From Synergistaceae bacterium (GTDB taxonomy: Bacteria > Synergistota > Synergistia > Synergistales > Synergistaceae): a DNA stretch of 35,948 nucleotides. The position numbers and the translations under genes were made by a program. The stretch covers positions 1-35,948 of the forward strand of contig JAISYN010000061.1 of NCBI GenBank assembly GCA_031269915.1. The letters run 5' to 3'. Shown here in pieces: positions 6,556 through 31,305 of the stretch (the stretch's first letter is position 1; every line of letters starts with the position of its first letter). The notes beneath the pieces were generated by a model. That model was not told where the DNA came from. It did not search any database and saw only the letters and a program-made list of their open reading frames with translations.

Positions 6556-7560
6556 ATGAAAATGGGAAAAACAGTTTACATAATTGCCATACTATGCATT
6601 CTCGTGTTTGCGTCAGCAAGCGCGTGCAACGCCGCAAACGCATCCGACAGCGCCAACAAAGCGAAGAAGCTCATATACGTCGGCTCCGCTTCGATAGGCA
6701 GCGCCGCGTATACTTCGTCTTCCGGAATCGCAACCGTAATCACCAACAATTCAGACTATATCAGCGTAAATTGTCAGGTGACTTCCGGTACTAATGAAAA
6801 TTACTCGTCCATGCTGGCGGGAGATATGGATATGGTGAATAGCGACGCGGGCTTGGCGTATCGCGTCGGTCACCCGGAGATACCGAAAGGTTCTCCTATG
6901 GAACAGATATACACGTTTGAAGCAAATTCGGACGTGAGATTTTTTACGAATTGCGAGCCTACCATTACTTCTTATATTGTTCATGCGAACAGCGATATCA
7001 AAACAGTTCAAGATATCCTGAAACCGGGCGTACGCATCGGCTTTCCGACACCGGGTAGTGTGTCCTATAGCTACAATAAGGCATTTTTTGAAGTGCTTGG
7101 CTTTAAACTCGATGACCTGAATCTTTATTATGCGGAGCGCGGTGAGCTGGTCGACGCTTTCAAAGACGGAAATATCGATGTGATCGTCAGTGTAATTGGT
7201 AATATCTCCAAACCAAACAGCGTAATCTACGAACTGAGTCTCTCAACTGACGTTCGCTTAATTTCGCTGGATGAGAATACGATGTCTTTATACAACTCAA
7301 TCTGTCCCGCTTATCTTAAGCATACAATGCCGGTCGGATGGATGCGGGGCGTGGACACCGAGGTCGTATGCGTCGTGGTTGGAGCTAACTTCATTATTAC
7401 CAAAGACATGCCGGATGACCTCGTGTATGACATGTGCAAAGCGTTGTTCGAGAACCTTGACGAATTGTATCAGATCAGCGAGTCGTTTAATTTTATCACG
7501 AAAGAAACCGCCGCCGCGGATGTTCCCTGTCCCATTCACCCGGGCGCGCTTAAATACTAG
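6556..7560 (+). CDS. TAXI-family TRAP transporter solute-binding protein (copy 1), truncated by an in-frame TAG
   Basis: ATG 6556 after AGGAGG; MKMGKTVYIIAIL signal, YVGSASIGSAAYTSSSGIATVI, KPGVRIGFPTPGS, DVPCPIHPGALKY. Frame continues after TAG as EENGFKITYIPDYKYGS* to 7614. Confidence 0.93.
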   Translation: MKMGKTVYIIAILCILVFASASACNAANASDSANKAKKLIYVGSASIGSAAYTSSSGIATVITNNSDYISVNCQVTSGTNENYSSMLAGDMDMVNSDAGLAYRVGHPEIPKGSPMEQIYTFEANSDVRFFTNCEPTITSYIVHANSDIKTVQDILKPGVRIGFPTPGSVSYSYNKAFFEVLGFKLDDLNLYYAERGELVDAFKDGNIDVIVSVIGNISKPNSVIYELSLSTDVRLISLDENTMSLYNSICPAYLKHTMPVGWMRGVDTEVVCVVVGANFIITKDMPDDLVYDMCKALFENLDELYQISESFNFITKETAAADVPCPIHPGALKY

Positions 7561-7697
7561 GAGGAAAATGGCTTTAAGATTACTTACATCCCCGATTATA
7601 AATATGGCTCATAATCGGTCGCAGCGATCGTTCGTACATTGTGCGCCGGGTAATTATACTCGAAACCGGTACAGCGGTTCATAAAATATTCCCGCCC

Positions 7698-7718
7698 CCC
7701 CCCGGTTACGCCGGGGGG
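7698..7718. other. GC-rich hairpin with a C9 tract between binding-protein copies 1 and 2
   Basis: CCCCCCGG-TTACG-CCGGGGGG, 8-bp perfect stem; no U-tract. Confidence 0.6.
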
Positions 7719-7745
7719 CAATGATTCTTCAGAGGAGGAACTATC

Positions 7746-8804
7746 ATGAAAATGGGAAAAACAGTTTACATAATTGCTATACTATCCGTTCTCGTGTTTG
7801 CGTCAGCAAGCGCGTGTAACGCCGCAAACGCTTCGGGCGCCTCCGACAGCGCAACCAAAGCGCAGAAGCTTTTATACCTTGGTTCCGCTTCGATAGGCAG
7901 CGCCTCATATGCCGGGTCTGCCGGAATCTCAACCGTAATCAGCAACAATTCGGACTATATCAGCGTCAATTGCCAAGTGACTTCCGGCTCTAATGAAAAC
8001 TATATGGCAATGTTGGCCGGAGATATGGATATAATGAATAGCGACGGCGGTCTGGCATATCGCCTCGGCCACCCGGAGATACCGGGTGACTCTCCCATGG
8101 CTCAGATATACGAGTTTGACGCGAATCCGGATATAAGATTTTTCACAAATTGCGAGCCTACCCTTAATTCTTATATTGTTCGCGCCGACAGCAATATCAA
8201 AACAGTTCAAGATATGTTAAAACCTAGCGTCCGTATCGGCTTTCCAACACCAGGCGGTGTGTCGTATAGCCGCAATAAGGCATTTTTTGAAGCGCTTGGC
8301 TTTAAACTTGATGACCTGAACATTTATTACGCGGAGCGCAATGAGCTGGTCGACGCTTTCAAAGACGGAAATATCGATGTGATCGTCAGTGTCATTGGTA
8401 ATATCTCCCTCCCAAACAGCACATTCTACGAACTGAGTCACGCAGCCGACATTCGCTTGGTCTCGGTGGATGAGGAAACGATGGCGATATTCAACTCAAT
8501 CTGTCCCGCTTACCTTAATTATACAATTCCTGCCGGCTGGATGCGCGGCGTGGATAGCGAAGTCGTAAGCGTCTTAGGCGGAAATAACTTCCTGATCAGC
8601 AAGGACATGCCTGATGACGTCGTGTATGACATGTGCAAAGCGCTGTTTGAAAACCTTGAGGAACTGTATCAGATCGGTGAGTCGTTTAGATATATCACGA
8701 AGGAAACCGCCGCAGCGGATGTCCCGTGCCCCATTCACCCGGGCGCACTTAAATACTATGAGGAAAATGGCTTTAAGATTACTTACATTCCTGATTATGA
8801 TTAA
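7746..8804 (+). CDS. TAXI-family TRAP transporter solute-binding protein (copy 2)
   Basis: 352 aa, full length, paralogue of copies 1 and 3; ends HPGALKYYEENGFKITYIPDYD. Confidence 0.95.
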   Translation: MKMGKTVYIIAILSVLVFASASACNAANASGASDSATKAQKLLYLGSASIGSASYAGSAGISTVISNNSDYISVNCQVTSGSNENYMAMLAGDMDIMNSDGGLAYRLGHPEIPGDSPMAQIYEFDANPDIRFFTNCEPTLNSYIVRADSNIKTVQDMLKPSVRIGFPTPGGVSYSRNKAFFEALGFKLDDLNIYYAERNELVDAFKDGNIDVIVSVIGNISLPNSTFYELSHAADIRLVSVDEETMAIFNSICPAYLNYTIPAGWMRGVDSEVVSVLGGNNFLISKDMPDDVVYDMCKALFENLEELYQIGESFRYITKETAAADVPCPIHPGALKYYEENGFKITYIPDYD

Positions 8805-8833
8805 GACTCAAAATAAGATAAGAGGTGCAAGCT

Positions 8834-10738
8834 ATGAAATTGATTGAATGGTACCGATACGCTCTCAAGGAAAATAATTTATCTGGAATCCGCGGCAACC
8901 TTGTCGCTATCATCGGAATTATTTCATCTTGTGTTTTTATCTACACGGCGATGTTCGGCAATTTGCCAGGCCTGACCCAGCGCGGACTCATGTTCATGGT
9001 CACTTGCTCCATAGTCTTCCTCGTCAAACCGGTAAATGGCAATAAGGACAGCAAAGCGGCGCTCGCGGCGGATCTGACGCTGGTAGCGATTACAGTCTTT
9101 GTGTTCGGCAACGTCATGATCAACTGGTTTGGCATCCTCAACCGCGCTATCAATGTCAGCGCGCAGGATATGGCCGCGTGCGTTGTCGTCAGCCTGATCG
9201 TCCTGGAGGCGACCCGCCGCGTAATCGGTTTGACCATGCCGATCATTACCCTGGTGTTTATCGCTTATGGCTTTTTGGGGCGATATGCTCCTGGTGTGTT
9301 GCGGCATCGCGGAATTTCACTAAGATCATTTACCGCTTCGGTATACACGACGCAAGAGGGCCTGTATGGTACTGCGGCGACCGCCACCGCAAACTTTATA
9401 ATGATCTTTTTGATCTTTGGCGCATTCCTTGAATTTTCCGGCGCGGGCGAAATGTTCTCGCGCGCGGCGCTCTCACTGTTGGGAGGAAGACGCGGCGGGT
9501 CGGCCAAGGCATCGATCCTGGCCTCGGCTTTAATGGGAATGATCAGCGGAAGCTCGGTGGCTGTCGTTGCCGCCACAGGTTCATTTACGATCCCATTGAT
9601 GAAGAAATACGGCTACAACGATATTGAAGCTGGCGCAATTAACGCCGTGGCCAGCACAGGCGGCCAAATCATGCCGCCTGTCATGGGATCCGCCGCGTTC
9701 ATCATGGCAAACACCATTGGTGTCTCATACTATACGATAGCCTTGATGGCGCTCGTTCCGGCGCTGCTTTACTACCTTGCCGAATTCTTTATGGTTGACA
9801 TGATCGCTGGAAAACGCGGAATCAAGGGACTGAGCCCGGATGAAAAACCTTCGTTAGTCGAGATTCTAAAAAAAGAAGGCTATATGTTCGCGCCGGTGGT
9901 TGTCTTGGTTGTATTGCTGGCAGTTTACAGGACATCTGTCCAAAAGGCGGCCATCTGGTCCATAGTGGTGACACTCTTGGTAAGTTTACCGGACAAGGCT
10001 CACCGCATTACTATTAAGAAATTTCTCGCCGCGCTGATCAACGGCGCCGTTAGCGGCATATCTCTCGGAGGGATTGTCGGCTGTGCCGGCATCATGCTCG
10101 CCATCATAATGCGTACCGGCTTGGCGCAGGCATTTACTGGCGCGCTGGTCACGATCTCCGCCGGACGCCTTATAGTGTTGCTGATCTTGAGCATGATCGC
10201 GTCTATGATTTTGGGGATGGGATTGCCGACGACTGCCTGTTACATCATTGTCTCCACTATGGCGGTACCGGCAATGATGGATCTGGGTGTGTCGAGAGAA
10301 GCCGCGCATATGTTCGCTTTTTATTTTGGCTGTATTTCATCTATTACGCCGCCAGTGGCTGTCGCGGCTTACGCTGCGGCCGGCATATCCGGCTGTGATC
10401 CGTTCAAATGCGGCTGGAAGGCTTGCGTGTTCGGCATTGCCGGATTTATAGTGCCGTATGTGTTCGTCTACCAAAACGAACTGCTGATGATGGGTACAAC
10501 GCCCAATATCATACGGGCAGTAGTTATTGCATTTCTAGGCGTCTACTTCCTCGCGTCAGGTGTTATCGGCTATGCAGTTACGACTTTCCCGAAATGGATA
10601 CAGCCAGTGCTGATCGTCGCGTCGCTGATGGTGATCGTGCCCGAGAATATCAGTACGATTATTGGCCTTGCAGTATGCGCGGTATGTATGATTTACAATT
10701 TAGTATTACATAACAAACAAAAGCGGCTAATGGCTTGA
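8834..10738 (+). CDS. TRAP transporter fused permease (small plus large membrane subunits)
   Basis: About 634 aa polytopic; EFSGAGEMFSRAALSLLGGRRGGSAKASILASALMGMISGSSVAVVAATGSFTIPLMKKYGY, GGQIMPPVMGSAAFIMA, MILGMGLPTTACYIIVSTMAVPAM, ISSITPPVAVAAYAAAGIS. Confidence 0.96.
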   Translation: MKLIEWYRYALKENNLSGIRGNLVAIIGIISSCVFIYTAMFGNLPGLTQRGLMFMVTCSIVFLVKPVNGNKDSKAALAADLTLVAITVFVFGNVMINWFGILNRAINVSAQDMAACVVVSLIVLEATRRVIGLTMPIITLVFIAYGFLGRYAPGVLRHRGISLRSFTASVYTTQEGLYGTAATATANFIMIFLIFGAFLEFSGAGEMFSRAALSLLGGRRGGSAKASILASALMGMISGSSVAVVAATGSFTIPLMKKYGYNDIEAGAINAVASTGGQIMPPVMGSAAFIMANTIGVSYYTIALMALVPALLYYLAEFFMVDMIAGKRGIKGLSPDEKPSLVEILKKEGYMFAPVVVLVVLLAVYRTSVQKAAIWSIVVTLLVSLPDKAHRITIKKFLAALINGAVSGISLGGIVGCAGIMLAIIMRTGLAQAFTGALVTISAGRLIVLLILSMIASMILGMGLPTTACYIIVSTMAVPAMMDLGVSREAAHMFAFYFGCISSITPPVAVAAYAAAGISGCDPFKCGWKACVFGIAGFIVPYVFVYQNELLMMGTTPNIIRAVVIAFLGVYFLASGVIGYAVTTFPKWIQPVLIVASLMVIVPENISTIIGLAVCAVCMIYNLVLHNKQKRLMA

Positions 10739-10745
10739 AAAGCAA

Positions 10746-10784
10746 AAAAATGGCTGTGTGCCTCTCGGATATACAACCATTTTT
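10746..10784 (+). terminator. Candidate intrinsic terminator between the permease and binding-protein copy 3
   Basis: AAAAATGGCTGT ... ACAACCATTTTT, 12-bp stem with one mismatch, ending in a T-run. Confidence 0.6.
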
Positions 10785-10834
10785 CCGACATTAAGCACAA
10801 TTAAATTCAATGTCCGATAGAGGAGGTACTAATC

Positions 10835-11896
10835 ATGAAAATGGGAAAAACAGTTTACATAATCGCCATACTATCGGTTCTCGTGTTTGAGTCAGCAAGC
10901 GCGTGTGACGCCGCAAACGCTTCCGGCGCCTCCGACAACGGCAACAAAGCGCAGACGCACATATACGTGGGTTCCGCGTCGATAGGCAGCACCGCGTATA
11001 CTACGTCTTCCGGAATCGCAACTGTAATCAGCAATAACTCAGACTATATCAGCGTCAATTGCCAAGTGACTTCCGGAACGAATGAGAATTATGCGGCTTT
11101 GTCGACCGGAGATATGGATATGATGAATTGCGATGCCGGCCTTGCATATCGCCTCGGTCACGCGGAAATACCGAAAGGCTCCCCTATGGAACAGATATAC
11201 GAGTTTGAAGCAAATTCGGACGTGAGATTTTTTACGAATTGCGAGCCTATCTTTACCTCTTATATTGTTCGCGCCGACAGCGATATCAGAACAATTCAAG
11301 ATATCCTAAAACCTAGCGTCCGTATCGGCTTTCCGACACCGGGCAGTGCGGCGTATAGCTACAATAAGGCATTTTTTGAAGTGCTTGGCTTTAATCTCGA
11401 TGACATGAATATTTATTATGCGGAGCGCGGTGAGTTGGTCGACGCTTTCAAGGATCGCAATATCGATGTGATTGTTGGCGTCATGGGTGATCTCTCCAAG
11501 CCAAACAGCGTAATTTACGAACTGAGTCTCTCAACTGACGTTCGCTTAATTTCGCTGGATGAGAATACACTGGCTTTATTCAACTCAATCTGCCCCGCTT
11601 ATCTTAAGCACATAATCCCTGTCGGCTGGATGCGAGGCGTAGATACCGAAGTTGTAGTCGTCATGAACGGAGCTAACTTCCTGATCAGCAAGGACATGCC
11701 TGATGACGTCGTATACGACATGTGCAAAGCGCTGTTCGAGAATCTTGATAAATTGTATCAGATCAGCGAGTCATTTAAGTATATCACGAAGGAAACCGCC
11801 GCAGCGGATGTCCCGTGCCCCATTCACCCGGGCGCGCTTAAATACTATGAGGAAAACGGTTTTACGATCACTTACATCCCTGATTATGACTCATAG
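10835..11896 (+). CDS. TAXI-family TRAP transporter solute-binding protein (copy 3)
   Basis: 353 aa, closely related to copies 1 and 2. Confidence 0.95.
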   Translation: MKMGKTVYIIAILSVLVFESASACDAANASGASDNGNKAQTHIYVGSASIGSTAYTTSSGIATVISNNSDYISVNCQVTSGTNENYAALSTGDMDMMNCDAGLAYRLGHAEIPKGSPMEQIYEFEANSDVRFFTNCEPIFTSYIVRADSDIRTIQDILKPSVRIGFPTPGSAAYSYNKAFFEVLGFNLDDMNIYYAERGELVDAFKDRNIDVIVGVMGDLSKPNSVIYELSLSTDVRLISLDENTLALFNSICPAYLKHIIPVGWMRGVDTEVVVVMNGANFLISKDMPDDVVYDMCKALFENLDKLYQISESFKYITKETAAADVPCPIHPGALKYYEENGFTITYIPDYDS

Positions 11897-11937: not shown

Positions 11938-12303
11938 ATGTTCGTAACAAAAGTTGATAAGTCCAAACGGTACGTGGTAACGGCGGAGAATGCCCCCGGG
12001 CATGTGGACCCCGAGTGGATCGGCAAGGTGTTTCGGCAGGGATTGACGGATGGAGAAAGTGTTATGAGAGTCGGCATCGCGGATTTTGAAGATGGCTCGG
12101 TGTCCGCGCTTCATAAGCACGGCAGCGATCAGATTATCATGATCACCGAAGGCGTGGGGATCTGTTCAACAGAAACCGAAGAGATTGAAGTTCATCCCGG
12201 CGATTGCGTTTTGTTCCGCGCCGGCGAACTGCATGTCCACGGCGCCAAGCCCGGACATTCCATGTCTCACTACGCGGTCAGCCTTGATCCGAAAATGAAA
12301 TGA
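11938..12303 (+). CDS. Cupin-domain protein
   Basis: 121 aa; SALHKHGSDQIIMITEGVGICSTETEEIEVHPGDCVLFRAGELHVHGA. Confidence 0.9.
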   Translation: MFVTKVDKSKRYVVTAENAPGHVDPEWIGKVFRQGLTDGESVMRVGIADFEDGSVSALHKHGSDQIIMITEGVGICSTETEEIEVHPGDCVLFRAGELHVHGAKPGHSMSHYAVSLDPKMK

Positions 12304-12367
12304 TTTTTTGGCGCCAAGCCTGGTGAACGCAAGTGAAAATGCGCATATAACAAAGGGGATAAAACAG

Positions 12368-13564
12368 ATGGCAATCGCGGATGATATTTATGGGTCTAAG
12401 GAGAGTTTATGGGCGATCGATTTGGAGCCTGGAGCGTTGTTTGGTGTGGGTTCTCGAAAGAAAACGGGCGAGCGCTTAAAAGGATATGGCGCGACGAGCG
12501 TGCTTTTAGTTTGCGATTTGGCAATGGAGAAACTGGGTTATGCCGAAGAGCTTACTGAAATTATCAAGGCGTCTGGTATAGAGGTGTTCCAGTACGCGAT
12601 AGAACCCAAGGAACCGACCTCCACGGAATGTAACAATTGCGTTGCCTTTGCCAGGAAGCATACGATTGACGGAATAGTCGGCTTAGGTGGCGGCAGTGCC
12701 ATCGATGTCGCGAAGATGACGGGACTAGTTCTGGCGAATGGCGGGAAAACCGAGAATTATCTTGGTTACGGTACCGATTATTCCAAAACAAAAACCTTCC
12801 GGCCAGTTATCGCGCTGCCTACGACTTCCGGTACTGGAGCTGAAGTGAGTACCGCTCTCGCAATCGAAGACGACACGAAAAATATCAAGGCAATCGGCAT
12901 GCACCGCGCGACATTCGCGATTGTAGACCCATCCTACACAGTAGGTCTTCCAAAAGAAGTGACAGCCAACACGGGCATCGACGCGCTGTCTCACGCGCTG
13001 GATTCGGTCTGCAATACCGCTGGGATGCGGAACTGGCTGGCGGACGCGCTTTCTTATGAAGGCATGCGGGTCTGCCACAAATGGCTGCCCGTCGCCTATG
13101 AGGATAGCGATAACCTGGAAGCGCGTTCCTGGATGAGTTACGCTGCGATGGTAGGCGGATACATACTCAAGCTGAGAAGATGCTCATGGGCTCATGCTTT
13201 CGCCAACAAGGTATCGGACCGATATCATTTGCCGCATGGCGTCGGATGCAGTCTGGGGCTGTATGGTCTTGTACGCTATAACGTCACCGAGAACCCGGAG
13301 GCCAACCGCATCATCGCCAGGTCTTTCGGCGTTGACTGCCCGGAGGGCGCTGATATGGTGGAAGTCGGCAAAAAACTTGTCAAGGCGACCGATGATCTTC
13401 AAAAAAGGGTGGGCATGAAGACAATGAAAGAAGCCGGATTGGACAAGGGGTTTATTGATGACGCCATTGATAAGATCAAAAATGACGGAAAATGGAAACT
13501 TGTCCCAAATGTGCCCAACTTTGAGGTCATGGCTAAATCCATCTACGAAGCGTTTGAGATGTAA
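12368..13564 (+). CDS. Iron-containing alcohol dehydrogenase family protein
   Basis: GLGGGSAIDVAKM, LPTTSGTGAEVS, GIDALSHALDS, YHLPHGVGCSL; ATG 12368 preceded by AAAGGGGATAAAACAG. Confidence 0.93.
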   Translation: MAIADDIYGSKESLWAIDLEPGALFGVGSRKKTGERLKGYGATSVLLVCDLAMEKLGYAEELTEIIKASGIEVFQYAIEPKEPTSTECNNCVAFARKHTIDGIVGLGGGSAIDVAKMTGLVLANGGKTENYLGYGTDYSKTKTFRPVIALPTTSGTGAEVSTALAIEDDTKNIKAIGMHRATFAIVDPSYTVGLPKEVTANTGIDALSHALDSVCNTAGMRNWLADALSYEGMRVCHKWLPVAYEDSDNLEARSWMSYAAMVGGYILKLRRCSWAHAFANKVSDRYHLPHGVGCSLGLYGLVRYNVTENPEANRIIARSFGVDCPEGADMVEVGKKLVKATDDLQKRVGMKTMKEAGLDKGFIDDAIDKIKNDGKWKLVPNVPNFEVMAKSIYEAFEM

Positions 13565-13600: not shown

Positions 13601-14371
13601 GTGAAGAAATTAGAAGGGAAAGTTGGGTTAATCACCGGTGCTGCGTCCGGAATGGGCAGGGCTTCAGCGAAGCTGTGGGCTGCGGAAGGCGCCAAAGTAG
13701 CAATTGCGGATATCCAGGACGAGATGGGTGAAGCGGTCGTCGAGGAAATCAAATCGCAAGGCGGGGACGCTTTCTACATGCATATCGACGTAACACGAGC
13801 GGACGAAGTTGAGAATATGGTCAAAAAAACACTCGAAAAATATGGCAAGCTGAATATCTTTTGGCACAATGCCGGCAACGCCGGGCCGGGACTCATAGAG
13901 CGAACCACCGAGGAGGAATACGACTTCACTTTGGCTTTACATGTCAAAGCTGGGTTCTTTGGGGCGAAGTATGCTCTGGAGGAGATGAAGAAGGTTGGCG
14001 GCGGAGCGATGCTCTTCACCAGCTCAATTGCCGGATTGAAAGTTTCCCGGAGCTCCGCGGTCTATTCGATTTGCAAATCGAGCCTGGTCATGTTGACCAA
14101 ATGTCTTGCGCTCCATTATGGAAAGTATAATATTCGCGCGAACTGTATTTGCCCTGGCGCTACCCAAACCCCATTGTTGCCGTCCTTTATGAACCGCAGC
14201 CCCGAGGATGATATTAAGGCCATCAAGGCAAATTACATCGCGAAAATTCCTCTTGGTCGGCTTGGAACCTCAGAGGATATTGCGCTGGCGTCGCTTTGGC
14301 TTGTCTCTGACGACGCTTCGTATGTAAATGGCGCTATCCTGTCCGTTGACGGCGGTTTAGCCTGCGCCTGA
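13601..14371 (+). CDS. Short-chain dehydrogenase/reductase (copy A)
   Basis: GTG start; GLITGAASGMGRASA, HNAGNAGPG, YSICK (YxxxK), CPGATQTPL. Confidence 0.95.
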   Translation: MKKLEGKVGLITGAASGMGRASAKLWAAEGAKVAIADIQDEMGEAVVEEIKSQGGDAFYMHIDVTRADEVENMVKKTLEKYGKLNIFWHNAGNAGPGLIERTTEEEYDFTLALHVKAGFFGAKYALEEMKKVGGGAMLFTSSIAGLKVSRSSAVYSICKSSLVMLTKCLALHYGKYNIRANCICPGATQTPLLPSFMNRSPEDDIKAIKANYIAKIPLGRLGTSEDIALASLWLVSDDASYVNGAILSVDGGLACA

Positions 14372-14434: not shown

Positions 14435-15259
14435 ATGGAAAAAAACATTAAGCTTTATATTCTCAATCTCGGACGTATTGAGATGGATTTTAACATCATC
14501 GTCAATAATGCTACCGTTGCTACCGTGTCAGACAAGGAAGCAAAACACCGCTGGGATTGGGTTCCCATTGATTCGATACTAATTGACCATCCTGAGGGCA
14601 AAATCCTGTTTGATCTCGGTTGCCATCCTGATGGAGACCCCTTAAGAGGAGGCAAACGCTTTTCAAAAACTGTAAATGAAGTGTGCCCATTCTATTATGA
14701 TGACGGGCAGACGATGGAAGAACAACTTGCGCTTTGCGGGACAAAGCCAGAAGAGATCAAGACAATTGTCTTTTCGCATATGCACTATGATCATACCGGC
14801 TATCTCTATTTGTTTCCGCACGCCAACGTTATTGTTTATAAAAAAGAACTCGAATCCGCTGTTTCATCTGTATTCGAAGAACCTAAACGGGAGTTTCATT
14901 CCTATTTGTATGAAGATATCATAGTGCCGGCCGCTAAGTATACATATATCACAGAAGATACGGAAATATTCGATGACATAAAAATGTATAATCTGAAAGG
15001 TCATACTCAAGGATTATGTGGATTAATGATCAAACTGAAAAACACAGGGCCCATGTTCTTTGTCCGCGATGCCTGCAACACATCCATTAACTATGGGCCA
15101 CCCACTCGTCTTCCGGGTCTCGTTGAAAATGTGCCTGATTATTTTGCTTCCACTGAGAAGATTAGAAAAATCGCAGCCGAGAACAATGCTACAGTTGTCT
15201 TTGGTCATGACAAAAATCAGTTTATGAGTATGAAACACGCTCCCGAATATTACGATTGA
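14435..15259 (+). CDS. MBL-fold metallo-hydrolase (N-acyl-homoserine-lactonase-like superfamily)
   Basis: IDHPEGKILFDLGCHPD, FSHMHYDHTGYL (HxHxDH), LKGHTQGLCGLMI, VVFGHDKNQF. Confidence 0.9.
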   Translation: MEKNIKLYILNLGRIEMDFNIIVNNATVATVSDKEAKHRWDWVPIDSILIDHPEGKILFDLGCHPDGDPLRGGKRFSKTVNEVCPFYYDDGQTMEEQLALCGTKPEEIKTIVFSHMHYDHTGYLYLFPHANVIVYKKELESAVSSVFEEPKREFHSYLYEDIIVPAAKYTYITEDTEIFDDIKMYNLKGHTQGLCGLMIKLKNTGPMFFVRDACNTSINYGPPTRLPGLVENVPDYFASTEKIRKIAAENNATVVFGHDKNQFMSMKHAPEYYD

Positions 15260-15347: not shown

Positions 15348-16313
15348 CTACCGTTGTAATTCTTCGATCTGTGCTCTGGTCAGCCCAGTTAATTGCTCAA
15401 TTTGGCTGATTGACATTTTCATGTCAATGGCATTTTTCGCTATGGCAAAGCTTCTTTTTGATTCTCCTCTCTTTTCCCCTCTTTTTTCTCCCTCTACTAT
15501 CCCCTCGTCTCGTGCGCCTTTCAGCATGCTTCTTTCGCGAAAATCGGCGAGCACCCAGTCTTCGTATGCTTGACGCACCGCCGGGCTGGCGGCAGCTTCG
15601 CCATAGCGCGCGATGAACTGCGCCGCGCCCGCGTCGCTCTCGACAAATTCTTTCATCCTCGGCTCCATCGCGTATACCTCCTCCGGCAGTTTTTTATTGA
15701 AGTGCATCTCATACAGCAGTCGGCTCCAGCAGTACAGCGGATTCGAGAAATTCGCCGGCGCTTCCGGGAAATAGGGCAATTGCACATTGAACACCGCGAA
15801 TTGCTCCAACGCCACGTCTCGCGGTTCTTTATCGTAGACAAAATGGATAGGTTGGAGTAGTTCCCTGTTGTCCTTCCGACAGTTGTTTACATGCCCGAAA
15901 ATGTTGATTGCCGAAATGTACGGCATTTCAGCAGCCATCTCCAATGCCGTCGTTCCCTTACGCGCCTCGCTTATATACTGATAAGACGCTCCCAGCACGT
16001 TGCGCTGAAGTATAGACGGATCGAAATAAAGCTGAACCTCTTGGGCGGCGATTCTATTGGTATCGCTCTTTGCCAATACATCAATATAACATCCACGATT
16101 GCCGAGGCGTGTCTGTCTTTTCTGCGGCGTCAGTTCGACGACGGTTCCAAACACCTCGCCGCATTCGGACAGCACGGCACCGATAAAGCTCTCCGCGGCG
16201 AGTCCCGCAACACTTTCATCCTTGTAGATTTCCTCGACAACAGGATCCGCCAGCGGCGACATCACATCTGCGTCTATTTTTTTTGCTAAGCCTGAACGAT
16301 CCTCATAAATCAT
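15348..16313 (-). CDS. Rpn family recombination-promoting nuclease/putative transposase (PD-(D/E)XK family)
   Basis: MIYEDRSGLAKKIDADVMSPLADPVVEEIY..., CYIDVLAKSDTNRIAAQEVQLYFDPSILQRNVLGASYQYISEARKG, low-complexity GEKRGEKRGE before the C-terminal helix. ATG 16313 has AGAGGT upstream; the track start at 16337 is an alternative. Confidence 0.85.
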   Translation of the reverse strand: MIYEDRSGLAKKIDADVMSPLADPVVEEIYKDESVAGLAAESFIGAVLSECGEVFGTVVELTPQKRQTRLGNRGCYIDVLAKSDTNRIAAQEVQLYFDPSILQRNVLGASYQYISEARKGTTALEMAAEMPYISAINIFGHVNNCRKDNRELLQPIHFVYDKEPRDVALEQFAVFNVQLPYFPEAPANFSNPLYCWSRLLYEMHFNKKLPEEVYAMEPRMKEFVESDAGAAQFIARYGEAAASPAVRQAYEDWVLADFRERSMLKGARDEGIVEGEKRGEKRGESKRSFAIAKNAIDMKMSISQIEQLTGLTRAQIEELQR

Positions 16314-16413
16314 CCGATTTACCTCTGATAATATCATTGTGAAATATAATATAGCATACTCCGAGGGGTATTTCTACTCGTTTTTCAGGGATGGGTGATA
16401 AAACCGGGTGATT

Positions 16414-28537: not shown

Positions 28538-29735
28538 CTAGCTGGCTTCGTTAACCTGTCTTTCGTAGTCGAATTTCAAGGCCTCGATGCCTTCCTCACG
28601 CACTTTGTCGTAATCGTACTGCAAGGCGTCGAACCCCTCCTCGCCCGTGCTCACGCGGATTACGTTTTCCACGTCGTAGACGAATATCTTGCCGTCGCCC
28701 GCCGATCCGGTGAAAAGAACGGATTTCGCGGCTTCCACGACTTTGCTCACGGGAACCTTGCACACAACCGTTTCCACCCGCACCTTGGGCAGCAGGGTCA
28801 TCTTCATTTCGGCCCCGCGGTATATCTCTTTCTTCCCCTTCTGCGCGCCGCACCCGGTGACCGCCGTCACGGTGAGCCCCGTAATGCCGATATCGTTCAG
28901 CGATTCTTTCAAGGCATCGAGCTTCTTGGGATTTGTATATATTTCCACCTTCGTCATCTTGGGATGCTCGCCAAGCATTTTTTTGGCCTCGGCGAGAGAA
29001 ACAGTATCAATGCCGGGAGTTGCGGAAAGAACCGGTTCGATTACGGGCACACCTTCCGACGCCACGACGACCGGCATGAAGTCGGCGTAACTGCTCGCGA
29101 GGGCGTGCTCGCGGATATCGAGGCCCTCGACTTCTTCGTCGCGGCTCACGCGCAATCCGACGAAGGCTTTTATGACGGAAAAGACTACCGCCATAGTCAC
29201 GGACGTCCATGCCGCCACCGCCGCTACCCCTATTATCTGGGTCACGACCATCGAGCCGCCGCCGCCGTAGAACAGGCCACCGTCCAACGCGAAGACGCCG
29301 GTCAATATGGTCCCGAGAGCCCCGCAAACGCCATGCACCCCGATCGCGCCGACGGGATCGTCGATCTTCAGCTTCTGGTCTATGAATTCGATGCCGAATA
29401 CCAGAACCGGCGCCGTTATGAGACCGATGAGGAAAGCCCCCACTGGGCTCACGGCGTCACATCCGGCCGTGATGGCGACCAGTCCGCCGAGCGCCCCGTT
29501 CAAGGTCATCGAGACATCGGGCTTGCCGTACCTGAGCCAGGTAATGAGCATCACCGCGTTGGCCGCCGTGGCCGCCGCCAGGTTCGTGTTGAATATTATC
29601 GAGCCCATCGAGACCAGCGTTTCGTCCCCGGTGGCGGAAACGGTCGAGCCGCCGTTGAAACCGAACCAGGCGAACCAGAGTATGAACACTCCCAGCGCGC
29701 CGAGGGTGAGGCTGTGTCCCGGTATCGCCCGTACA
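28538..29735 (-). pseudogene. Ammonium transporter, 3' part with fused C-terminal PII (GlnK-like) domain, disrupted by IS insertion
   Basis: Frame reads [31 protein letters not shown]...GAIGVHGVCGALGTILTGVF...MTKVEIYTNPKKLDALKESLNDIGITGLTVTAVTGCGAQKGKKEIYRGAEMKMTLLPKVRVETVV...GDGKIFVYDVENVIRVSTGEEG. Confidence 0.95.
29727..29735. repeat. Target-site duplication, left copy (GCCCGTACA)
   Basis: Identical to 31306-31314. Confidence 0.95.
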
Positions 29736-31305
29736 GGGTGTAGATATAAATTTTTGGTATTTACAGATTTACTATTTGATGATATACTGCTGAAAAAGGG
29801 AGATGTCAGTATATGGATGATGGTGACACAAGAGGCTCGACTGGCATTAAATTGGCTGAAATAGAGCGGTTAATAGAGGAATTCAAAGAAAAGTTCGAAG
29901 CGGGAACCTCTGATGCGGAGAACTTTATTACAATGTTTGAAATCGAACAATTATGGTCGGAATTGCAAAATAATACCAATAATATATATTCAGATATGGT
30001 TAGAGAACTTATGAGTACTGTGGACGAACGGGATTTAATCCGTAAAAAAAAAAGAGAGTATCGACTCCGCAAGATAACGTTGCGCACACATATAAAAACT
30101 TCGATTTCAATAATCACGTCACTGGGACAAATCTCGTTTTCGCGGTATTTGTTGATACCACAGGATATAGGCAGCAAAGAGAAACTCATGAGGCTCGCGA
30201 GAGCCAAAAGCGTTGCCCCGCTTGACTGCTATCTCGGACTAGCCGGCTTGCCGTTCAAAATCACGCCGGCAGCGATGCTTAGAATTGCCTACTGGGCGCA
30301 AAATCAGTGCTCCTACCAAAGGGCCGAAGATGCTATCTCCGAAATATCACGCATAAAAGTAAATGACGATACAGTCAGGTTGGTCGCCAACTTTGTCGGG
30401 GACGTGGTGTTCGGAAACGATTGTCAGAAGGCGGATGAAGTGTTCGCCGCGTTGGACAGCGGTAAACTTCACTTCCCGAAAGACCGTGACGGCGTGTTGT
30501 ACATACAAACTGACGGTGCCGCTCTCAATACGAGATTAAAAGATGAGACGGGTTCCACATGGCGCGAAAATAAACTGGGGGAAGTGTTTTCGTCGAAAGA
30601 TATCCATTATTGGACTGACAAAAAGGGCCAAAGGCAGCACCGGATCCTCAAAAAAGAGTATGTCAGTTACATTGGCGCCGCGTCGGAATTTAAAAAACAC
30701 TTGTTTGCCTGCGCTTTACGCGGAGGTTACGGGCGATTCAAAGAGACTGTCCTCCTCAGCGACGGTGCCGTGTGGATACGTAACATGGCGGAGGAACTAT
30801 TTCCAGACGCACAACACATCCTTGATTTCTTCCATCTGTGCGAAAATGTCAACACTTATGCAAAGCATATATTTAACATGGATGGACCCAAGTACAAAGC
30901 ATGGGCGAAAGACATTTGTGACAGGCTTAAAACGAGCGGATACCGTGATGTTTTGACCGAGTTGGAGCCCTTCAGGAACAAAAAACCGCACAATTGCCCA
31001 GTTAATCTCTATGGCTATATCTCAAACAACATCAATAACATCGACTATGCATCATACGAGAAAAAAGGCTATTTTATTGGTAGCGGCGCGGTAGAAAGCG
31101 GAAACAAAATCGTCCTCCAAGACCGCTTAAAGAGAGCCGGCATGCGTTGGAACACCGCCACGGCACAAGCCATGCTTACACTGAAATCAAAAGTGGAAAG
31201 CAATTTATGGTCGTTGGATGTCGAAAAACCTTTCTTATCACATTGTCGTTCCCTCTCTGACCCTCTTTTCCATATCTGATATACCATAAAAAAATATCTA
31301 CACCC
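29736..31305 (+). mobile_element. Insertion sequence, 1570 bp, DDE-type (ISKra4/ISLre2-like, family tentative)
   Basis: Imperfect terminal inverted repeats, 21/25 matches: GGGTGTAGATATAAATTTTTGGTAT (29736-29760) and the reverse complement of ATACCATAAAAAAATATCTACACCC (31281-31305); flanked by a 9-bp TSD; contains one transposase. Confidence 0.95.
29813..31279 (+). CDS. IS transposase
   Basis: 488 aa; YIQTDGAALNTR, LLSDGAVWIRNMAEELFPDAQHILDFFHLCENV, YFIGSGAVESGNKIVLQDRLKRAGMRWN. Confidence 0.93.
   Translation: MDDGDTRGSTGIKLAEIERLIEEFKEKFEAGTSDAENFITMFEIEQLWSELQNNTNNIYSDMVRELMSTVDERDLIRKKKREYRLRKITLRTHIKTSISIITSLGQISFSRYLLIPQDIGSKEKLMRLARAKSVAPLDCYLGLAGLPFKITPAAMLRIAYWAQNQCSYQRAEDAISEISRIKVNDDTVRLVANFVGDVVFGNDCQKADEVFAALDSGKLHFPKDRDGVLYIQTDGAALNTRLKDETGSTWRENKLGEVFSSKDIHYWTDKKGQRQHRILKKEYVSYIGAASEFKKHLFACALRGGYGRFKETVLLSDGAVWIRNMAEELFPDAQHILDFFHLCENVNTYAKHIFNMDGPKYKAWAKDICDRLKTSGYRDVLTELEPFRNKKPHNCPVNLYGYISNNINNIDYASYEKKGYFIGSGAVESGNKIVLQDRLKRAGMRWNTATAQAMLTLKSKVESNLWSLDVEKPFLSHCRSLSDPLFHI

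Follow-up and report, generated by a model that had tools for sequence, protein, structure and literature searches.

The window analysed here is a 35,948-nucleotide stretch of contig JAISYN010000061.1 from a Synergistaceae bacterium (GCA_031269915.1). It carries a single fused TRAP permease gene together with three genes for TAXI-type solute-binding proteins (SBPs), designated S1, S2 and S3, in the order S1-S2-permease-S3 and all on the forward strand. When the gene coordinates were re-derived, they agreed with an earlier note on this DNA, as did the order SBP-SBP-permease-SBP. The locus comprises the following features:

6556..7560, forward: S1, TAXI-TRAP solute-binding protein, 334 aa (TIGR02122, 153.7 bits), truncated at the C-terminus by a TAG at 7558-7560
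7561..7614, forward: remnant of the S1 3' end, in-frame homologous sequence EENGFKITYIPDYKYGS, running to the next in-frame TAA at 7612-7614
7698..7718, forward: G+C-rich stem-loop in the S1-S2 spacer, from a fold of 7620-7745
7746..8804, forward: S2, TAXI-TRAP solute-binding protein, 352 aa, intact (TIGR02122, 164.8 bits)
8834..10738, forward: fused TRAP permease of the DctQM type, 634 aa (TIGR02123, 597.6 bits; PF06808, 288 bits)
10746..10784, forward: hairpin separating the permease from S3, resembling a terminator but atypical (folding z -2.4)
10835..11896, forward: S3, TAXI-TRAP solute-binding protein, 353 aa, intact (TIGR02122, 164.3 bits)

By curated models, the locus is a member of the TAXI-TRAP transporter family. 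All three SBPs score well above the TRAP_TAXI cut-off (154-165 bits against 84.35 for TIGR02122) and also match PF16868 (NMT1_3) in the profile search, while the permease exceeds the TRAP_fused cut-off (597.6 bits against 320.65 for TIGR02123) and also matches DctM (PF06808). A GTG at 8825, upstream of 8834, is a possible alternative start for the permease. The end of S2 lies 29 nt from the permease ATG, and 96 nt separate the permease stop from the start of S3, which has its own ribosome-binding site. An AlphaFold2 model of S2 (pLDDT 90.7) was compared with the PDB, and its top seven matches were all TAXI chains, with TM-scores (by query) of 0.70-0.76 and Foldseek E-values of about 1e-24 to 1e-26. 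The locus thus resembles VcGluP-VcGluQM of Vibrio cholerae (VC0430/VC0429; PDB 8s4j) and TtGluBP (1us4) in its SBP fold and in having a fused QM permease adjoining the SBP gene, and differs from them in possessing three SBP genes instead of one. No match to the DUF3394 claw domain was found in the permease (8834-10738) by profile search. We also observed that Cys24 follows ASA in all three SBPs (genes at 6556, 7746 and 10835), forming a weak lipobox; residue 25 is Asn in S1 and S2 and Asp in S3, which could affect membrane sorting if these proteins are lipoproteins.

An SBP trio around one TAXI-TRAP permease is uncommon. The 3:1 ratio found here departs from the usual, although not strictly defining, 1:1 ratio of TAXI-TRAP systems. 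We counted TAXI genes with a profile at 80 related permease loci among the matches listed, a sample rather than a census, drawn from Bacillota, Synergistota, Pseudomonadota, Spirochaetota and others. One permease with one SBP was present at 68 of these loci, two complete pairs at 2, and no detected SBP at 10, several of which sit at contig ends; at none of the 80 did TAXI genes outnumber permeases. Similarly, among the 20 permease loci from the closest same-phylum matches, 18 were 1:1, one held two pairs and one was cut by a contig end, again with no case of additional TAXI genes. These counts bear out the earlier statement that one binding protein per TRAP permease is usual. Individual loci vary in layout: at L093, one of the 68, the SBP lies far from the permease, and L150 (G109:C34, 397-7221) carries two complete TAXI-TRAP systems side by side, with two fused permeases between two SBPs. 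A literature search covering few subscription journals found no account of a TRAP permease with several TAXI SBPs.

The host genome contains five other complete TAXI systems, all of them 1:1, with SBPs only 23-29% identical to S2. Apart from those truncated at contig ends, all other fused permeases of the genome sit next to a TAXI gene of their own, so that the earlier note's counter-scenario, additional permeases elsewhere paired with S1 or S3, finds no unpaired complete permease to rest on. Because the source assembly is a 3.3 Mb metagenome-assembled genome in 377 contigs with 6.87% contamination, an unseen second permease may exist. The pairing of the other permeases with TAXI genes of their own, together with the fact that S1-S3 are far closer to one another than to any other SBP, makes it very improbable that an extra SBP serves something else, for instance sensing or uptake through another permease of the genome. 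Such roles have precedents, as TAXI proteins that work with GltS rather than with a TRAP permease (PMC12344293) and orphan SBPs of TTT systems with possible signalling roles (PMC5812351) have been described; the position of S3 beyond the hairpin and its pocket, the most divergent of the three, also speak for this reading.

The three SBPs are 78-80% identical to one another at the protein level and only 18-30% identical to other TAXI proteins. Synonymous divergence is nearly equal for the three pairs (dS 0.431, 0.425 and 0.416; dN/dS 0.25, 0.19 and 0.28). A dS of about 0.42 combined with dN/dS of 0.19-0.28 indicates that the copies are not fresh but have long been kept under constraint; as judged from these rates, S1-S3 is an established family under purifying selection. 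Sites at which two copies agree against the third are clustered along the gene (shuffling-based runs test: p = 5e-5 with all sites, 0.018 with silent sites alone), and this mosaic pattern fits occasional recombination or conversion between the copies, a reading that is modestly supported. The near-identity of the 5' ends noted earlier is real, since 29 nt are exactly identical across S1, S2 and S3, yet it is not remarkable given the protein identity and the common ribosome-binding and signal-peptide region. We rejected this identity as proof of gene conversion because it is too short; the whole-gene mosaic statistics are better, though modest, evidence. As for the origin of the trio, no close relative was found at E 1e-50 in 188 genomes of the phylum, nor among 10 congeners and other relatives, and the best plasmid match was 32%. 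The closest permeases among the matches listed are 42-43% identical, and a single SBP accompanies each of those inspected. The lack of any relative better than E 1e-50 in the 188 phylum genomes makes horizontal acquisition possible.

The earlier count of three binding proteins holds for the genes, as three TAXI genes are present; it overlooked a premature stop that may leave S1 non-functional. Codon 335 of S1 is an in-frame TAG in place of the TAT (Tyr) of S2 and S3, and beyond it the frame stays homologous for 17 further codons before the TAA at 7612. The stop interrupts the last helix (residues 332-340 of the S2 AlphaFold2 model) and deletes the near-invariant Glu of HPGAxKYYxE, which is conserved at 90% or more. 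The resulting tail of 4 residues after HPG is the shortest of 74 TAXI proteins, the others having at least 8. Because of this truncation, completeness is certain only for S2 and S3. We considered and rejected the TAG as a pyrrolysine sense codon: no PylB above its cut-off was found in the genome, and with no pyrrolysine gene above cut-off the TAG should be a stop. It may also be a sequencing error or a strain variant. Separately, a congener TAXI gene (L107, G007:C263, 1470-2468) is interrupted by an in-frame TAG in mid-gene, following GSGT, a different site from that in S1; this is probably a further broken gene or else an error of assembly.

These observations raise the possibility that the locus consists of decaying duplicates, with S1, and perhaps S3, becoming pseudogenes and S2 with the permease forming the sole working system. 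The premature stop in the last helix of S1 and the hairpin standing between the permease and S3 both point that way. Against this, dN/dS is well below 1 in all pairs, S3 is intact and has its own ribosome-binding site, and S1 is, stop aside, the most constrained branch, so we regard general decay as improbable. The codons unique to each copy give nonsynonymous to synonymous ratios of 16:28 for S1, 32:22 for S2 and 23:25 for S3; the smallest nonsynonymous share on the S1 branch indicates that its stop is recent. S1 remained under constraint up to the appearance of the stop and is probably now losing function.

The ligand-contact residues of VcGluP have been published (PMC11574862), and we used them to define a pocket of 13 positions, transferred through a 72-sequence alignment against which the VcGluP chain numbering was checked. 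Within the trio, positions 44, 45, 75, 125, 156, 157 and 200 (VcGluP numbering) vary. With a mapping that rests on 24% identity to VcGluP, S2 and S3 differ at 7 of the 13 positions in this alignment, S1 and S3 at 5, and S1 and S2 at 2. Position 125, in the hinge, is uncertain by two residues and is invariant in the HMMER register, which lowers the differences to 6, 4 and 2, respectively. In comparison, 36 pairs of single-SBP TAXI proteins at 70-90% identity differ at a mean of 0.4 of 13 positions, with a maximum of 3, although these control pairs are orthologue-like and paralogues could differ more anyway. A published comparison points the same way as the controls: VcGluP and TtGluBP retain a nearly unchanged site although they are just 38% identical. 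Within the trio, the pocket is only marginally richer in variable sites than the rest of the protein for S2/S3 (p 0.014-0.055) and S1/S3 (0.03-0.12), and no such excess is seen for S1/S2.

The pockets of S1 and S2 thus appear nearly the same, with 2 of 13 mapped positions differing. The suggestion that interior differences may broaden the set of ligands or tune affinities is partly supported: S2 and S3 differ at 6-7 contact positions, where the controls rarely differ. Against a simple three-protein version stand the truncation of S1 and its S2-like pocket. Since some substitutions map to ligand-contact positions, the variable residues are not all surface-exposed, as they would be in the refuting case of the earlier note, which coupled such exposure with identical ligand affinities.

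The same counts bear on dosage or redundancy, in which the copies bind the same ligand, duplication raises the amount of SBP relative to the permease, and neutral drift accounts for the pocket differences. The common requirement for more SBP than permease favours this explanation, and so do the identical 5' ends, the near-identical signal peptides and the 2 of 13 differences between S1 and S2. The S3 pocket, however, differs from that of S2 at 6-7 positions and from that of S1 at 4-5, above all 36 control pairs and despite purifying selection; on balance dosage is unlikely, while being the strongest of the competing explanations.

Two positions bear on the identity of the ligand. The equivalent of Tyr45 is Ala, Ser and Ala in S1, S2 and S3, at a position that holds an aromatic residue in 61 of the 67 other TAXI proteins, and the equivalent of Gln93 is Asp in all three. 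Glutamate-binding TAXI proteins of the VcGluP/TtGluBP type are recognized by these Tyr and Gln residues, and the trio differs from both proteins in having them replaced. In VcGluP the loss of Tyr45 and Gln93 cut affinity 213- and 990-fold, respectively. With both residues replaced, glutamate is unlikely as the ligand, and the smaller side chains in the trio pockets suggest a larger or differently shaped one.

With regard to expression, the stable fold at 10746-10784 reported earlier is real (-14.6 kcal/mol, z -2.4), but its terminator-like character is less secure, as the terminator scan gave no flag and the U-run lies within the 3' arm of the stem. Because this hairpin precedes S3, S3 may be produced at a different level. 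The stem-loop at 7698-7718 is very G+C-rich and contains a C run, with no T run after it. No known riboswitches or RNA elements were found near the locus.

Taken together, our analysis favours, with a probability of about 60%, a single TAXI-TRAP transporter fed by tandem paralogues that would be specialised for related non-glutamate ligands, S1 having been recently truncated. Tandem duplication of the SBP gene would have produced S1, S2 and S3 around the single fused permease. All three SBPs are predicted to dock on this permease, because they are about 80% identical mutually and only 18-30% identical to other TAXIs. S2, nearest the permease start, would be the canonical partner; S2 (and S1 before its truncation) and S3 would bind different, probably related organic-acid-like ligands, and each intact SBP would capture its own ligand in the periplasm and deliver it to the same elevator-type permease. 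More tentatively, and at rather less than an even chance, the locus might represent a multi-specific TAXI-TRAP system in which tandem, pocket-diversified SBPs are exchanged on one fused permease, with recombination partly homogenising the copies and with a ligand class unlike glutamate.

The genes downstream of S3 offer potential insight into the cargo. Four are codirectional with the transporter:

11938..12303, forward: cupin-domain protein (PF07883/PF02311), possible operon member
12308..13564, forward: iron-containing alcohol dehydrogenase (PF00465), start uncertain, an internal ATG near 12369 being likelier
13601..14371, forward: SDR-family oxidoreductase
14435..15259, forward: lactonase-like hydrolase of the metallo-beta-lactamase fold

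Beyond 15259, and in the opposite orientation, lie genes for an aldehyde dehydrogenase, two MmgE/PrpD proteins, hydroxyisobutyrate-type dehydrogenases, an enoyl-CoA hydratase, an acyl-CoA dehydrogenase and a CoA-transferase. This neighbourhood points to the catabolism of hydroxy acids, lactones or branched organic acids, which would be the likely class of cargo. The lactonase-like gene has a G+C content of 0.41, markedly below that of its neighbours (about 0.5). A PD-(D/E)XK-type transposase-like gene (15348-16337, reverse strand) and a UPF0236 gene of the mobile-element type (29813-31279, forward strand) flank the catabolic cluster, which is consistent with mobility of the catabolic region. 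An ORF at 28538-29689 on the reverse strand joins a C-terminal ammonium-transporter half (positions 198-396 of the 399-position profile) to a full P-II regulatory domain; its third-position G+C of 0.77 exceeds that of its neighbours, and it is possibly a truncated Amt-PII fusion.

Several SBPs per permease are known in other transporter families, and the present locus is plausibly a variant of this arrangement on TAXI-TRAP, with its function predicted from sequence. For instance, five SBPs of Pseudomonas aeruginosa, DppA1-A5, serve the one ABC permease DppBCDF (PMC4206461, PMC12728205); four have distinct ligand profiles and DppA5 showed no detected binding (PMC12728205). In both cases several paralogous SBPs go with one permease, a sharing that is predicted for the locus here, but DppBCDF is an ABC peptide transporter with measured function, whereas the present locus encodes a TRAP secondary transporter. 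Similarly, the expanded TTT (TctC/Bug) SBPs of Bordetella and Rhodoplanes (PMC5994714, PMC5812351) reflect lineage-specific SBP duplication exceeding the membrane parts of a secondary transporter. Those SBPs are mostly dispersed orphan genes, numbering tens to hundreds, in contrast to the compact tandem cluster with one TAXI-TRAP permease described here.

What a TRAP transporter can take up is determined by its SBP, and work in the field assumes one SBP for each permease. Which residues set specificity among TAXI proteins is an open question (PMC11574862), and a trio that is about 80% identical yet differs at the ligand site would form a natural set for addressing it. The trio would also allow one to ask whether a TRAP permease accepts several SBPs with different cargo, that is, whether it is promiscuous.
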